Shown piece by piece: positions 37,873-44,481 of a DNA stretch of 64,000 nucleotides. The notes under the pieces are model-generated. The model had not been told where the DNA came from. It did no database searches and worked only from the letters and a program-made list of their open reading frames with translations. The DNA is taken from contig QCHT01000001.1 in NCBI GenBank assembly GCA_003279445.1, forward strand, positions 186,001 through 250,000, written 5' to 3'. Source of the stretch: Prochlorococcus sp. AG-402-G10. Lineage in GTDB: Bacteria > Cyanobacteriota > Cyanobacteriia > PCC-6307 > Cyanobiaceae. Numbering within the stretch: the stretch's first letter is position 1; each line of letters starts with the position of its first letter. The position numbers and the translations under genes are program-made.

Positions 37873-39762
37873 TTAATTTTTAATATTAATCCCAAGTATA
37901 GATATGCTTGTATCTATTAATTCCTTTATATACGGCCCTTTTCCATTTGTAAATTTATAATAATCATTTTTATTGCCAAGTACACATTTTAAACAATCAT
38001 TTTCTTGATTCATAATAATCAATGTATTATTACTACCTAACTTGCACCTATATTTTCTTTTATTTATTCTAAATTTAATTTCTTCAGAATATTTGTTTAT
38101 ATCAATAATATTTAATATTGGAATTATTCCTCCCTTTGTTAATTTAGTTTCGATATTAAATACGATATCTATTTTTTTTGGCAGGTAATTCTTGTCTTTA
38201 TTTCCTCCCCACTTTATAGCCTCAATTATTTTGCCACTTTGTGATAATTTTAATATTAATTGGTCAAAATATCCATAGGAGGAAGATAAGACGTTGCAAC
38301 CTCGGGTCCAAAATATCGGCTGACTATTATTTACTCCAAATGGTTCTAACATGTTAATATCTTCTAATAATTTTGTGTTAATATCACTAAAATATATATT
38401 TGACTCTGGAATCAATTTAAATAAATTTTTTTCATTAGTCATCCAACTATTAGAAATTGATTGAAGTTTATTCTCTAATTTCATTAAATTTCTTGCTTTA
38501 ACAGTGAAGCCTGCAGCTGCAGAATGACCTCCATATTGTTCTAATAAGTCTGAGCAACTATTAAGAGCATCGACCATGTCGAAATTTTTAGGTGATCTTG
38601 CAGAGCCTCTGAAGTTTCCATCTCCATCGCTAGTTAGGATGGCCGTAGGCCTACCAAACTTGTCCATTAATCTTGATGCTACTAAACCTATAACACCAGG
38701 GTTCCAATGAGGTTGAGCTAATAGTATAAATGAGTTAATATACTTATTGTCTGCTGTTACTATCTTTAGAGCTTCCTTCTCAACACTAGAAGTGATAAAC
38801 TTTCTCCGTTTATTTATTTCTTCACAGGTAGATAATTTTTCCGACAATTTAGATTCATCCTTTTCTAGAAGAAGTTCTATAATTAGCTTTGGATCATCTA
38901 TTCTACCTATTGAGTTTATTCGTGGTGCAATTTTAAAACCAATATCATGTGATGTAATTGACTTATTATGAATTTTTGCATTCTTCATCAAACCTTTTAA
39001 GCCGATGCATTCTGTGTTTCGAATATTTTTTATCCATTTTTTTAACCAGTATCTATTAGCCCCTGTCATACTTGCCATATCTGCAACTGTACCTATACAT
39101 AAAAGGTCTCTAGCAGTACCTAGAAAATCCTTCCCTTTAAATGTATTTGCAATACTTTCAGCTAATATATAAGTTACGCCAACTCCAGCAATGCTTCTAT
39201 AGGGAGAATCCTGAGGTGTAGTGTCTGGATGAATTAATGCAAATATGTTAGTTAAACTACAATTAATCTTATGGTGATCTGTAATTATTATCTCTATTCC
39301 TAATTTCTTTGCATGGTTAATTGCTACATTAGCTGAAACTCCATTGTCTACTGTAATAATTAATTTTATACCTGCTTTTGCAACTTTATTAACTAATGAG
39401 ACATTTAGACCATAACCTTCATTCTGTCTAGAAGGAATTAATGGTACTGGCCTCCCTTTTATTTTTGACAGCACATCTACAAGGAGAGCTGTACTAGTCA
39501 TTCCATCAGCATCATAGTCTCCACAAATTGCGATAGATTGGGATGTTTTTACTGAATTAATTATCTTCTTTGTTGCTTTCTCTAAATCTGGGAAATGTTC
39601 GGCTGGTTGTGGCAGTGGCTGTGGATTCAGATAATTATCAATAGCCTTAGGGTTAGTAAGTCCCCTTCTAATTAAAACCTCTTTTAGCTTGCTTGAAAGA
39701 GGAATATCAGATAATGATTCAATATTTAGGTTTTTAGGTACATTCCAGATATGATCTGACAC
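37873..39762 (-). CDS. recJ: Single-stranded-DNA-specific exonuclease RecJ
   Basis: A 629-residue 5'-3' ssDNA exonuclease of the DHH family. Motif I ICGDYDADGMTSTALL lies near residues 78-93, and motif III ITDHHK near residue 159. The DHHA1 region shows GGHSAAAGFTV near residue 410, and the OB part DINMLEPFGVNNSQPIF near residue 470. The length is normal. Its start faces the HAD hydrolase gene across a 54-base spacer. Confidence 0.95.
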   Translation of the reverse strand: MSDHIWNVPKNLNIESLSDIPLSSKLKEVLIRRGLTNPKAIDNYLNPQPLPQPAEHFPDLEKATKKIINSVKTSQSIAICGDYDADGMTSTALLVDVLSKIKGRPVPLIPSRQNEGYGLNVSLVNKVAKAGIKLIITVDNGVSANVAINHAKKLGIEIIITDHHKINCSLTNIFALIHPDTTPQDSPYRSIAGVGVTYILAESIANTFKGKDFLGTARDLLCIGTVADMASMTGANRYWLKKWIKNIRNTECIGLKGLMKNAKIHNKSITSHDIGFKIAPRINSIGRIDDPKLIIELLLEKDESKLSEKLSTCEEINKRRKFITSSVEKEALKIVTADNKYINSFILLAQPHWNPGVIGLVASRLMDKFGRPTAILTSDGDGNFRGSARSPKNFDMVDALNSCSDLLEQYGGHSAAAGFTVKARNLMKLENKLQSISNSWMTNEKNLFKLIPESNIYFSDINTKLLEDINMLEPFGVNNSQPIFWTRGCNVLSSSYGYFDQLILKLSQSGKIIEAIKWGGNKDKNYLPKKIDIVFNIETKLTKGGIIPILNIIDINKYSEEIKFRINKRKYRCKLGSNNTLIIMNQENDCLKCVLGNKNDYYKFTNGKGPYIKELIDTSISILGINIKN

Positions 39763-39816: not shown

Positions 39817-40560
39817 ATGAATCGTTTGCATACAGTTTTTTGGGATCTAGATGGCACCATGGCAGATACAGAGATGATGGGCCACAGAAAAGCTTTTAAC
39901 CAATCATTTTCAGAATTCCATCTAGACTGGACTTGGGACAAGAACACTTATAGTAGGTTACTTTCCATTCCAGGTGGTAAAAATAGAATTAAGTATTTTG
40001 CAAAAGAAAAGAATGTTAATCTAGATAATATAACAATTAATTTATTGCATCAACAAAAACAAAAGTTTTATCAGGAAATATTGCATTCTGGAAGTATAAG
40101 CCTAAGGAGAGGAGTTATGAGACTAGTTTTAGAGCTTTATGCTAGAAATACTAATCAATGGATTGTCACAACTTCTTCAAAATCGGCAGTTAAAGCCTTA
40201 TTAAAAAAATTCTTTCCTAGAGGGATGTCCCCCTTTGGAGGATATACAACATTTGATGATGTTCTAGATCTTAAGCCTCACCCAGAAGCTTATTTTAGGG
40301 CCATTAAAAATAGTCTTGCAGAACCAAGTAATTCATTAGCTATTGAGGATTCCTTAATTGGTTACCAAGCAGCCTCAGCATCCAAGCTTAAGTCACTAAT
40401 TACTTTGTCACCCTGGTTAAAAAAGATACCAGAAGGTATAAATGAAACCCAGCTAGTCGTTGATAGTCTAGGTGATCAAGATAATGCTTCTGTTGCACTT
40501 CAAGGAAATATACTAGATTCTATTATTACTTACAAATCCCTACAATCATTAATTAATTAA
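39817..40560 (+). CDS. HAD-superfamily hydrolase (CbbY/beta-phosphoglucomutase-like)
   Basis: A 247-residue Rossmannoid phosphatase. Motif I FWDLDGTMADTE (about residues 8-19) holds the nucleophile and general acid Asp, and KPHPEAY (about 150-156) with IEDSLIGYQAA (about 170-180) gives motifs III/IV. The all-helical cap (about 20-90) places it in subfamily I. Substrate uncertain; CbbY relatives act on sugar phosphates such as xylulose bisphosphate. The ycf20-like gene follows six bases later. Confidence 0.88.
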   Translation: MNRLHTVFWDLDGTMADTEMMGHRKAFNQSFSEFHLDWTWDKNTYSRLLSIPGGKNRIKYFAKEKNVNLDNITINLLHQQKQKFYQEILHSGSISLRRGVMRLVLELYARNTNQWIVTTSSKSAVKALLKKFFPRGMSPFGGYTTFDDVLDLKPHPEAYFRAIKNSLAEPSNSLAIEDSLIGYQAASASKLKSLITLSPWLKKIPEGINETQLVVDSLGDQDNASVALQGNILDSIITYKSLQSLIN

Positions 40561-40566
40561 AGCTTT

Positions 40567-40902
40567 ATGAAAGTCTATAAAACTAATTATGATTCATTTG
40601 TTAACTCTTTATTCAAGGGCTTAAATAATTCCCTTGTTGGGCCTTGGAAAAGCAGAAGTATAGGATTACTGTCAGTATTGATTGGTTACTATTTGGCGAG
40701 TACAATTACAGCTTATTATCTTGAGGAATTTCGTCAAAGAGTTTTAGTAGTTGGGCTTTTATGTTTTCTTCTCGAAATAGCAATTAGATATAGAAGAAAT
40801 TTAATTAGGTTAAATCAATTTCCATTATTGCTAATTGTCGATAATTTTAGAATTGGTATTACTTACGCAATTGTATTAGAGGCATTTAAACTTGGCTCAT
40901 AG
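40567..40902 (+). CDS. ycf20: Ycf20-like protein (DUF565)
   Basis: A 111-residue membrane protein with blocks SLVGPWKSRSIGLLSVLIGYY, FRQRVLVVGLLCFLLEIAIR and LLIVDNFRIGITYAIVLEAFK, the pattern of cyanobacterial and plastid Ycf20/DUF565. Two to three helices are expected. Plant homologues are involved in thermal dissipation (NPQ); the mechanism is unknown. It is likely co-transcribed with the HAD gene. Confidence 0.85.
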   Translation: MKVYKTNYDSFVNSLFKGLNNSLVGPWKSRSIGLLSVLIGYYLASTITAYYLEEFRQRVLVVGLLCFLLEIAIRYRRNLIRLNQFPLLLIVDNFRIGITYAIVLEAFKLGS

Positions 40903-40942: not shown

Positions 40943-41116
40943 TTATTCGTCGTCACCCTCTTCCTGGACAGGGTAAACAAAACCTTGAGCTCGACCACTG
41001 AGTATCGATTTTCCTAGTGATAATGCTTTCTTAGCAGCATCTCCCGCTTTAGCCTTCCAAACGGAATGACGTTGATTTCTTTTACCTTTTGATGTCTTTT
41101 TCTTTGGTACAGCCAT
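40943..41116 (-). CDS. rpmF: 50S ribosomal protein L32
   Basis: A 57-residue basic protein starting [20 protein letters not shown] and ending QEEGDDE; the Ala-Val-Pro-Lys-Lys-Lys start and the RHSVWKAKA block are diagnostic of L32. It lacks the zinc cysteines of some orthologues, as usual for cyanobacterial L32. Its promoter probably lies in the spacer before the FtsH-like gene, from which it diverges. Confidence 0.95.
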
Positions 41117-41252: not shown

Positions 41253-43037
41253 TTGCTTAAGAAAGTGTTTTCGAGGTTTATCTCAAATAAAGATAATGAT
41301 TCTAATAGCTATAGCAGCCTATTAGAAGACATGGCATCTCAAAATATCGAATCACTGATCCTTATTCCATCTAGAAGAGAAGTCCTTGTTAAATACAAAG
41401 ATGGACAGTCAAAGTTAATTCCTATTTTCCCTAATGATCAAACAGTACTTAAGACTGCAGAATCAAATGGTATTGCATTAGAAGTAAGAGATGGAAGGGA
41501 CGAAGAGACTTTCTCTTCTTTTACAGCTAGTTTTACTCTTGGTTTTATATTTATTTTACTCTGTATAATATTAATCAAGAAGTCTGTAAAATTAGCTAAT
41601 AAAAGTCTTTCCTTTTTGAGTGGTAAACGATCTTTTGATGATACAACAACTATAGAGACTCGTTTTGATGATATAGCCGGTATTCCAGAGGCTCTAGAAG
41701 AGGTCAAAGAGATAGTTTCTTTTTTGAAAATACCAGAGAATTATAATAATTTAGGAGCTACTATTCCTAAGGGTTTTCTTTTAACTGGCCCTCCTGGAAC
41801 AGGTAAAACATTACTAGCTAAGGCTCTAGCAGGGGAGGCTGGTGTGCCCTTTATTTCTACATCTGCTTCCCAATTTGTAGAATTATTTGTTGGTATCGGA
41901 GCAAGCCGAGTGAGCAGTCTTTTTGCTCAAGCCAAGAGTAAATCTCCGAGTATTATCTTTATTGATGAAATAGACTCAATTGGACGAAAGCGAGGTTCTG
42001 GAATTGGAGGTGGTAATGATGAAAGAGAACAAACACTTAACCAATTACTCATAGAAATGGATGGCTTTTCAGAAAACTCTGGTGTAATTGTCATAGCTGC
42101 GACTAATAGGGAGGAAGTACTGGACCCAGCATTAATTAGGCCAGGTAGATTTGATAGAAGAATAAATGTATCTCTTCCAAATAGAAAAGGTAGAGAAGAT
42201 ATTTTGTCTATTCATGCACTATCAAAACCATTATGTGACAAAGTTCTTCTTAAGGAATGGGCTATTCGAACACCCGGTTTTTCTGGAGCAGATCTATCTA
42301 ATTTATTAAATGAAGCAGCTATAATTACAGCTCGAGAAAACAAGAAAAGAATAGGAGAACAACAGTTGGAGAAGTCTCTAGATAGAATTACACTGGGATT
42401 AAGAGATTATCCCCTTAAGAGCTTAAATCAACTAAGAATAATTGCTTATCACGAGATAGGCAAGGCACTTGTTGCATATCTAACTCCATCAGCAGATTCA
42501 GTGGATAAGATAACAATACTTAGAAGAAGTGGAAGTTTAACTGGAAATACAAGGTTTACCAATTTAACTCAAAATAGCGAAGATGGACATTTTTCTAAAA
42601 GATATCTTGAAGATAAACTAATGGTTTCACTTGGCGGAAGAGCAGCTGAGGAACTTATTTTTGGAAATTCTGAAATAACTCAAATATCATCAAATCAATT
42701 GGAAGAAGCAACATTACTAGCTAACAAAATGGTTACAAAGTATGGTTTTTCAGACTTAGGGCCAATTTCAATAGCTATTGATAAGTTGGCAAGAGATTTT
42801 GAATCCAATTTATTGGGTTCAAAATCTATTTACGCAAATAGGACAAATAGACAAATAGATAGTCAAATAGCAATATTAATAAAGACTTCACAAGAAAAAG
42901 CCAAACAAACAATAAGTCCCTACCTAAATGTATTAGATATTATGGCAACATCACTTTTAGAGGAGGAGGTATTCACCAAGGAACGTTTTGAAATACTTTT
43001 TAAAACAGCCACTAACTCCTCCGCAGTATCACTATGA
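41253..43037 (+). CDS. FtsH-like AAA+ protein without protease zinc ligands
   Basis: A 594-residue FtsH relative. An FtsH-extracellular-like region (about 20-85) is followed by one membrane helix (about 91-109). The AAA module is complete: Walker A GPPGTGKT (179-186), pore loop FVG (212-214), Walker B IIFIDEID (234-241) and second region of homology [20 protein letters not shown] (282-301). The protease domain is folded-looking, but HEAGH reads HEIGK (400-404), and the third ligand region after [11 protein letters not shown] reads NQLEEAT (481-487), with Gln for Asp. No first helix is present. The start is TTG at 41253, with an in-frame stop at 41226. It overlaps the next gene by four bases. 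Confidence 0.9.
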
Positions 43038-43855
43038 AGAGCTTCGTAGAAGATTTATTGGGGGTAAGGATATCATTTAATAATTTCTTCCTGAATTTTC
43101 TTTTTATAATGTTCTACTTACTTTGGGGGCAATTTCTTCACAAAGTAAATCTTTTATCTAGCTATGAGTGGACTAATAACTCTAATTCTTTAACCATGTA
43201 CCACATACTGTCATCTATTATTTGTTTTATTCCATTCTTTATACTATGGAAATGGTATAAATCATGGAATAGATTAATTTCAAATACTAAAAGTATTTCT
43301 ATAAAGGAGGAAACCTTATCAATTAGTAAATACATAGCGTATTTATTATTAATTCTCACGATTATTTACCTAATATTTATATTTTCTATCAAATATCTTA
43401 TAGATAATTATATTAATCTTGATTATTCTAACACTTCTTCATATCTTTCTTACTTAAGAGAATATATTTTTAATCCGTATTTCCTGTTGATTTATATTCT
43501 TATAGCATTATTTTCTCTTGTTAGTAGGAATAGTAGATTTTTACTTATTTTAAATAGTATTCCTTTATATATAATTTTAACACTATATATTTTTAAGATA
43601 GATTACTTGAACCTTAGTTCAGTAAACTCTATAAATGGATTTATTTTTAGTCAAGATAGAATATATATATGTCTAATACTAATCTTTGCGTCTTTAAACA
43701 ATTTGCTATGCGCTTTACTTAACTATATGATATTTGGAACAGGATTGTCAGATTTAAATTGTAATTACTTTAATCACTACAATTATAATTATATTAAGAC
43801 CTTATTACAATTGACAATATTTTCTTTTGGATTGGCTTTCGGAATCTCTAGTTAA
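43034..43855 (+). CDS. Polytopic membrane protein of unknown family
   Basis: A 273-residue protein very rich in Ile, Leu, Tyr and Asn, with about seven hydrophobic helices (roughly 17-35, 56-72, 100-121, 147-164, 168-188, 209-232, 254-271). I recognise no family or catalytic motif. Its ATG lies within the stop of the FtsH-like gene (ATGA), so translation is coupled and a physical partnership is plausible. The high Asn/Tyr content partly reflects the AT-rich genome. Confidence 0.75.
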   Translation: MKSFVEDLLGVRISFNNFFLNFLFIMFYLLWGQFLHKVNLLSSYEWTNNSNSLTMYHILSSIICFIPFFILWKWYKSWNRLISNTKSISIKEETLSISKYIAYLLLILTIIYLIFIFSIKYLIDNYINLDYSNTSSYLSYLREYIFNPYFLLIYILIALFSLVSRNSRFLLILNSIPLYIILTLYIFKIDYLNLSSVNSINGFIFSQDRIYICLILIFASLNNLLCALLNYMIFGTGLSDLNCNYFNHYNYNYIKTLLQLTIFSFGLAFGISS

Positions 43856-43887: not shown

Positions 43888-44481
43888 TTACAGTGACGAA
43901 AAGTATTCCTTACTTCCTTTTGGATCAGGTAGCATAGTTTTATCACCTGGCGTCCAGTTTGCTGGGCAGACTTGATCTGGGTTAGAAGCAACATACTGAT
44001 ATCCCTGCAATACTCTTAATGTTTCATCTACATTTCTGCCTACTGGGGCCTTGTTAACTGTGCTATGCATTATTACACCCTCGGGATTTATTAGGAATAA
44101 ACCTCTATCGGCCTCTCCATCATCATTAAGGACATTATAAGCACTTGCTATTTCCCTTTTTAGATCTGAGATTAATGGATATGTAATGTCTCCTATACCT
44201 CCTCTATTTCTAGGAGTTTGTATCCAAGCAAGGTGACAATGGACACTATCTACAGAGACTCCAAGAACTTCTGTGTTTTTTGAGGAGAAATCACTGAATC
44301 TATCACTAAAAGCAGTTATTTCTGTTGGACAGACAAAGGTAAAATCTAAGGGATAGAAAAACAAAACTACCCATTTCCCTCTGTAATCAGATAGGCTGAT
44401 CTCCTTGAACTCTTGGTCTATTACTGCTTCTGCAGTGAAAACTGGTGCCTCTTGGCCAACTCTTAAACACCCTTCTGTCAT
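43888..44481 (-). CDS. 2-Cys peroxiredoxin
   Basis: A 197-residue typical 2-Cys peroxiredoxin reducing hydrogen peroxide and organic peroxides with thioredoxin. The peroxidatic Cys51 is in [12 protein letters not shown] and the resolving Cys172 in [10 protein letters not shown]; the catalytic Thr54-region and later Arg are retained. The C-terminal YF-like tail (SKEYFSSL) and [10 protein letters not shown] (GGLG-type) indicate a hyperoxidation-sensitive form. It is convergent with the membrane protein gene. Confidence 0.95.

Follow-up and report, generated by a model that had tools for sequence, protein, structure and literature searches.

Prochlorococcus is among the ocean's most abundant photosynthetic bacteria, and protease-free FtsH machines are known mainly from chloroplasts. 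Within the stretch of DNA that we analyzed (64,000 nucleotides of the single-cell genome of Prochlorococcus sp. AG-402-G10, referred to hereafter as the window) lies an FtsH gene whose product combines a complete ATPase signature with a degenerate zinc site, which raises the questions of how this site was lost and what such a protein might still do. The product scores over the Pfam cut-offs for AAA (residues 176–307, 149.6 bits), AAA_lid_3 (residues 331–374) and Peptidase_M41 (residues 393–580, 141.7 bits), and falls half a bit short of the NCBIfam FtsH_fam model (599.5 bits, cut-off 600). Its score is the lowest of the four M41 matches in its own genome (1.62 Mb in 37 contigs, 89.72% complete), though two of the others are partial. 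The protein has both domains of an FtsH zinc metalloprotease, AAA+ and M41, and lacks the HEXXH and Asp ligands, which is the constitution of the functional class FtsHi (M41 without HEXXH, motor retained). The initial annotation had described an intact ATPase (Walker A, Walker B, FVG pore loop and second region of homology), a protease site reading HEIGK without its second His, and Gln at the acidic third-ligand position (NQLEEAT, column 482); sequence and orthologue alignment confirm these observations, and the interpretation placed on them is partly supported, as set out below. The features of the locus are collected in Table 1.

Table 1. Features of the ftsH locus in the window, in order of position.
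Feature	Position	Strand	Basis
RecJ-like protein, neighbor; not found beside ftsH in nine HL loci	37873..39762	-	Pfam, locus comparison
HAD-family hydrolase, conserved neighbor	39817..40560	+	Pfam, locus comparison
DUF565 (PF04483) protein, conserved neighbor	40567..40902	+	Pfam, locus comparison
Small ORF between DUF565 gene and ftsH	40943..41116	-	Read by eye
Putative ftsH4-type gene with TTG start, homologue of Synechocystis FtsH1, encoding a protease-dead FtsH of 594 aa	41253..43037	+	ORF, profile matches, alignment
Sole predicted transmembrane segment, about residues 90–108; none found upstream	41520..41576	+	Hydropathy; AF2 helix 82–122
Walker A GPPGTGKT, residues 179–186	41787..41810	+	Lys185/Thr186 in 35/35 dead-clade sequences covering the site
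Pore loop FVG, residues 212–214	41886..41894	+	Phe212 in 35/35 dead-clade sequences covering the site
Walker B IIFIDEID, residues 234–241	41952..41975	+	Asp238/Glu239 in 35/35 dead-clade sequences covering the site
Second region of homology, residues 283–302, with Arg296 and Arg299	42099..42158	+	Both Arg in 35/35 dead-clade sequences
Degenerate zinc motif HEIGK, residues 400–404	42450..42464	+	Sequence and orthologue alignment
Third-ligand codon, Gln482 replacing Asp (NQLEEAT)	42696..42698	+	Orthologue alignment
Multi-TM protein of 273 aa, putative remnant of the UPF0182 N-terminal membrane domain; start overlaps ftsH stop by 4 nt	43034..43855	+	ORF, hhalign
Peroxiredoxin (prx), neighbor	43888..44481	-	Pfam, locus comparison

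Orthologues were collected from 205 genomes (G000–G204, comprising the window genus and an even draw of the family), 172 of which yielded a usable copy. The complete site (His-Glu-x-Gly-His plus Asp; such copies are called active here) is present in 136 of these and lost in 36 (called dead), the latter belonging to seven genera (11 copies from g1, the window genus, two from g4, three from g16, nine from g17, one from g27, two from g39 and eight from g56); none of the sampled genera mixes dead and active copies. Beyond the family, the best-match FtsH loci have an intact site in 26 of 26 cases (30 loci were read, the other four proving to be family members, one active and three dead), as do 11 of 11 further outside loci. 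Since the site is intact in 136 of the 172 orthologues and in none of the 36 of the window clade, the loss is both real and derived; orthologues with HEXXH plus Asp, which the initial annotation had named as evidence against its reading, thus exist in the family at large and are absent from the clade that matters. Among the 33 genomes of the 205 without a usable orthologue, the neighboring gene prx was sought in 26 and found (E ≤ 1e-60) in three, in one of which (G038, 99% complete) it sits at a contig start; the remaining seven hold partial matches to the ftsH gene or none. As prx is mostly absent too, we read these missing copies as assembly gaps rather than as demonstrated losses of ftsH.

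The second His is replaced in all 36 dead copies, by Lys in 18, Arg in 16, Ile in one and Thr in one (basic in 34 of 36), and column 479, which is Ala in ≥99% of active copies, is Ser in 34 of the 36. In a careful tree of 49 rows (LG+G4 without a mixture model, 25 of the 36 dead rows), from which the ligand columns and column 479 had been removed, the dead copies form one clade (UFBoot 100, SH-aLRT 97), which argues against several separate losses. A quick tree of 85 rows that includes paralogues (29 of the 36 dead rows, ligand columns removed, with long-row warnings) recovers the same clade with an SH-aLRT of 96. The shared Ser479 and the shared truncation of the neighboring gene described below fit a single origin. 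Two loci of the clade, L163 (G039) and L253 (G016), with the zinc motifs RESAR and RNASK, carry Walker A as GSPGTGKT rather than GPPGTGKT.

As to strains, we take G159 (genus g17) to be MED4, G082 (g29) to be MIT9313, G001 (g1) to be SS120, G089 (g39) to be MIT9211 and G120 (g56) to be NATL2A. The published FtsH4 primer pairs match exactly at the dead G159 locus (the MED4 pair) and at the active G082 locus (the MIT9313 pair; PMC6300248). The dead lineage thereby appears to include MED4-type cells, with MIT9313-type cells retaining the protease site, and by inference the clade would span the HL, LLI, LLII and LLIII types, LLIV being active. In the available part of the same paper, picocyanobacterial FtsH4 is mapped to Synechocystis FtsH1 with a homology “less obvious” than that of the others (Bonisteel et al, 2018; PMC6300248), an assignment that recurs in Table 1 of a later paper together with Slr1390 and “cell viability” (PMC11262661); the former also describes MED4 transcripts as balanced among isoforms 1, 2 and 3, ftsH4 being unnamed in that passage. 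In a quick paralogue tree (with long-branch warnings), the family orthologues and 26 loci from other cyanobacteria split from the FtsH2, FtsH3 and FtsH4 types at a branch with an SH-aLRT of 98; these 26 rows had been selected for matching the family protein best, which favors their grouping with it. From the primer matches and the tree placement, we assign the window gene as the picocyanobacterial ftsH4, a putative homologue of Synechocystis FtsH1 and type-B subunit.

Gene order upstream is stable across the 71 loci compared, of which 30 are dead and 41 active: the DUF565 gene precedes ftsH in all 71, the HAD gene is present in 70 and recJ in 61, recJ being not found in nine HL loci and in L243. 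The nine HL-type loci in which recJ was not found in the expected position ahead of the HAD gene are L193, L201–L203, L205, L206, L208, L210 and L211. The fetched flank contains the peroxiredoxin gene in all but one of the 30 dead loci and in 26 of the 41 active ones. The small ORF on the opposite strand between the DUF565 gene and ftsH presumably encodes ribosomal protein L32 (rpmF), and its antisense position makes it probable that ftsH has a promoter of its own. A promoter scan, to which we gave no weight, returned 28 sites for an expectation of 20.0 (sd 4.2).

Downstream, the gene between ftsH and prx was read in 72 loci (41 active, 31 dead). Behind active ftsH, the adjacent frame spans 843–953 residues in 27 of 41 loci (L246–L252, L216–L232 and others; full-length UPF0182 directly behind ftsH4, with an overlap of 4 nt in some), and 579 residues, cut by a contig end, in one; the other 13 have none (genera g24, g54, g6, g45, g23, g10 and g30, plus one contig end), and in three of them (G036, G057, G035) UPF0182 lies 1.8–3.4 kb downstream. 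The large frame (about 920 residues in many active copies) coincides with a match to PF03699 (UPF0182). Behind dead ftsH, the frame has only 249–277 residues in 25 of 31 loci (its junction with ftsH ranging from −11 to +55 nt), runs off the contig in one and is absent from five, all of them g56 (LLI-type). PF03699 matches occur in 130 of the 201 family genomes searched and in none of the 35 dead-clade genomes among them, nor in the window's own genome; the window ORF itself has no Pfam match. Profile comparison of 26 short with 27 full proteins by hhalign nevertheless aligns 246 colinear columns (probability 98.6, E 6.9e-16) to UPF0182 profile columns 21–277, the remainder of the full protein having no counterpart; the reversed control gives a probability of 0.5, and genus subsets range from 80.5 (HL, the weakest) to 98.1, with reversed controls of 0.2–0.8. 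An LSDW-like motif at 215–252 occurs in 17 of the 26 short and 16 of the 27 full proteins. This homology, combined with the shared slot between ftsH and prx, identifies the short gene at the sequence level as a putative truncated N-terminal domain of UPF0182 that has shed the remaining about 650 residues. The neighbor in the dead clade is thus less than a third of full length, or absent (LLI), and the truncation looks to have fallen on the same evolutionary branch as the loss of the FtsH site.

The tie between the two losses is loose, since active FtsH also occurs in genomes where UPF0182 is missing. PF03699 is matched in 125 of the 136 active genomes, and eight of the 11 without a match belong to genus g9, where UPF0182 was not found in any of eight genomes with active ftsH (G021, G075, G102, G124, G142, G157, G171 and G193), apparently an independent loss. 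Outside the family, UPF0182 was not found in 11 of the 55 genomes drawn (four of four in f12, four of four in f15, and G212, G216 and G250), and the best-matching FtsH, whichever paralogue it may be, is intact in all 11; in the two complete outside genomes compared (G219, G226), ftsH and UPF0182 lie far apart. A strict tie is thereby ruled out. Loss of UPF0182 does not force the death of FtsH, and the co-loss is a single evolutionary coincidence, not many.

A further difference from the usual FtsH arrangement concerns the membrane. Two N-terminal TM segments are usual, although not universal, in FtsH; hydropathy finds one TM-like segment in the window protein. Among copies with a visible frame start, a first-TM-like segment is found in none of 35 dead and six of 70 active ones (66 active loci being too short for assessment), and five of these six carry it farther upstream (248–279 residues before the Walker motif), leaving G044 at the usual distance; in relatives outside the family, it is present in six of ten and not found in four. 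Picocyanobacterial orthologues, active and dead alike, thus seem mostly to lack the first segment. Because it is missing from most active copies too, its loss probably preceded that of the protease, and its absence could alter assembly.

What might such a protein do? We consider it probable that the ftsH4 product takes part in a mixed hexamer as an ATP-driven, protease-dead subunit, cutting being left to FtsH3. The M41 zinc site would have been destroyed in the common ancestor of the seven Prochlorococcus genera, with Lys or Arg taking the place of the second His in nearly all descendants, and sequence comparison shows that selection has preserved the AAA+ motor together with its pore loop and Arg fingers. 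In cyanobacteria, FtsH1/3 and FtsH2/3 heterocomplexes are described, with FtsH1 and FtsH2 as type-B subunits and FtsH1/3 essential (PMC11287208, in the part available). By analogy with Synechocystis FtsH1/3, the dead FtsH would most likely join an FtsH3-type subunit (named FtsH2 in picocyanobacteria), and the mixed hexamer would hydrolyze ATP and pull and unfold membrane or regulatory proteins, which the FtsH3 subunits would cut. The basic residue at position 404 may substitute for the charge of the zinc, keeping the dead domain folded. The adjacent UPF0182 gene lost a large C-terminal part, seemingly on the same branch; the two changes co-occur, and a functional link between the genes would make this the remodeling of a two-gene membrane module. 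A bolder proposal, which we put forward tentatively, is that the FtsH1 and UPF0182 module was rebuilt to be protease-free as a whole, the zinc being exchanged for a Lys/Arg charge, FtsH becoming a motor or scaffold subunit and UPF0182 being cut down to a membrane anchor. Were this so, the essential role of cyanobacterial FtsH1 would be unfolding or scaffolding, not cutting, and UPF0182 would be a partner of FtsH.

The main rival to the mixed hexamer is a hexamer made of the dead subunit itself, perhaps with the UPF0182 remnant, that would extract or translocate proteins without proteolysis in the manner of chloroplast Ycf2-FtsHi. We regard this as unlikely. It would accord with a kept motor, with the loss of the second His in every covering copy and with a remnant gene that follows ftsH closely at 25 of the 31 dead-clade loci read. 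An AF2 model of the window protein, which is modest (mean pLDDT 72.9, pTM 0.45) and was used for fold only, matches FtsH structures, with Ycf2-FtsHi motor structures among the fold matches. Known cyanobacterial type-B subunits, however, act with FtsH3 according to the accessible text of PMC11287208, and no remnant gene follows ftsH in the five loci of LLI type that were read.

Alternatively, the protease may have been lost by drift in shrinking genomes, the rest of the gene being on its way out. This fits the long branches of the dead clade, the neighbor that has lost most of its length and the zinc motifs, which vary in their degeneration from genus to genus. The reading frame nonetheless speaks for a maintained gene. 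No internal stop was found in any of the 36 extracted dead copies (that of G006 being a fragment); the matches of G012, G028, G077 and G153 contain an in-frame TAA where they overran an end of the frame, and the open frames there span 586, 580, 577 and 583 codons, respectively. Among the extracted proteins, an internal stop occurs in one alone, an orthologue from an active genus (L230, G180:C1:1006717-1016441), which has an in-frame TGA within the match. Lys185, Thr186, Asp238, Glu239, Phe212, Arg296 and Arg299 are kept in all 35 covering copies (the 36th, from G006, is the fragment), bearing out the earlier reading of the ATPase as intact. Conservation is unevenly distributed. Among columns conserved at ≥99% in active copies, the dead set retains (at ≥95%) 100 of 133 in the AAA domain, 14 of 45 in M41 and two of three in the N-terminal part. 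We estimated dN/dS with our own NG86 script from pairs with dS < 1.5. The four dead sets (from three genera) give 0.05–0.11 for AAA, 0.10–0.20 for M41 and 0.10–0.35 for the N-terminal part, and the five active sets 0.014–0.040, 0.044–0.078 and 0.07–0.14; where measured, selection on the dead clade is thus purifying, well below 1 in both domains, and roughly two to three times weaker than in active relatives. The gene is, moreover, present in all nine HL-type genomes drawn, of about 1.6–1.7 Mb each. The weakened selection accords with such decay; on balance, the data leave the idea improbable.

A peptidase that remains active with a rearranged metal site seems more improbable still. Glu401 is kept in 23 of the 36 dead copies and Asp482 in 22, which would accord with such an enzyme, but the second His is lost in all 36 and the first in 28 (retained in eight), mostly to Lys, Arg, Asn or Gln. 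The same counts divide the double ligand loss proposed in the initial annotation: the loss of the second His is universal in the clade, whereas that of the Asp is not. An artefact of sequencing or assembly, which the fragmentation of the window genome would have allowed, is refuted by the orthologues, as had been argued from the two ligand losses: HEIGK recurs in a second single-cell genome (G007) whose FtsH is 93% identical, and genomes of the clade assembled as a single contig, G001, G089, G159 and G120 among them, lack the site too. The 36 site-less orthologues likewise exclude a single-strain oddity. The loci L006 and L056, which represent this second genome and both read HEIGK, apparently come from one and the same contig of 52,261 bases. 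A scan of genome contigs returned a single close relative (93%); the other 79 FtsH proteins were distant (≤49%), and some of them served for alignment depth.

The loss of the protease site across this lineage bears on a larger problem, in that a 2024 review singles out why Synechocystis cannot do without FtsH1/3 as the chief unanswered question on this protease (PMC11287208, in the part available). Dead MED4-type and active MIT9313-type cells would offer a direct comparison of whether cutting by this subunit is needed or the motor alone suffices, and the UPF0182 family, for which we found no described function and no literature in cyanobacteria, becomes linked to FtsH by neighborhood and by a loss on seemingly the same branch. 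In G001, which we take to be SS120, the motif reads NEAGK, and the one FtsHi described from that strain is very probably an orthologue of the window gene. That protein was reported from Prochlorococcus marinus SS120, and no FtsHi was observed among the chlorophyll-a cyanobacteria of that study (Mishra et al, 2019; PMC6460958), and a 2021 review repeats the observation (PMC8197885). In its available part, the report concerns one strain and motif inspection, without the clade, its origin, selection or the gene neighborhood. In the literature searched, which mostly excludes subscription papers, we found neither a loss across the whole clade nor a truncated UPF0182 mentioned; the clade, its origin and the neighbor truncation accordingly appear to be new.

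Two known systems are closest. Synechocystis FtsH1 (slr1390), the partner of FtsH3, belongs to the same family branch by our tree and by the published FtsH4 assignment, as far as those sources were available (PMC6300248, PMC11262661); unlike it, the dead clade is without the zinc site, and most picocyanobacterial orthologues checked have no recognizable first TM segment. Plant and algal FtsHi1–5 (with FtsH12 and Ycf2) likewise join an AAA+ motor to an M41 domain without HEXXH, and motifs of theirs such as NEAAM and REAAV, as given in the accessible text of PMC11266112, resemble the NEVGR type of the dead clade. Plant FtsHi is part of a protein-import motor, whereas the dead FtsH is nested among active picocyanobacterial FtsH. 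The kinship with plant FtsHi suggested in the initial annotation is therefore not supported as worded; given this nesting within the ftsH4 family, in trees composed without plant rows, an independent loss is the better reading and looks parallel to that of plants. The dead clade would thus give plant FtsHi a counterpart in free-living bacteria and provide a test case for protease-free FtsH.
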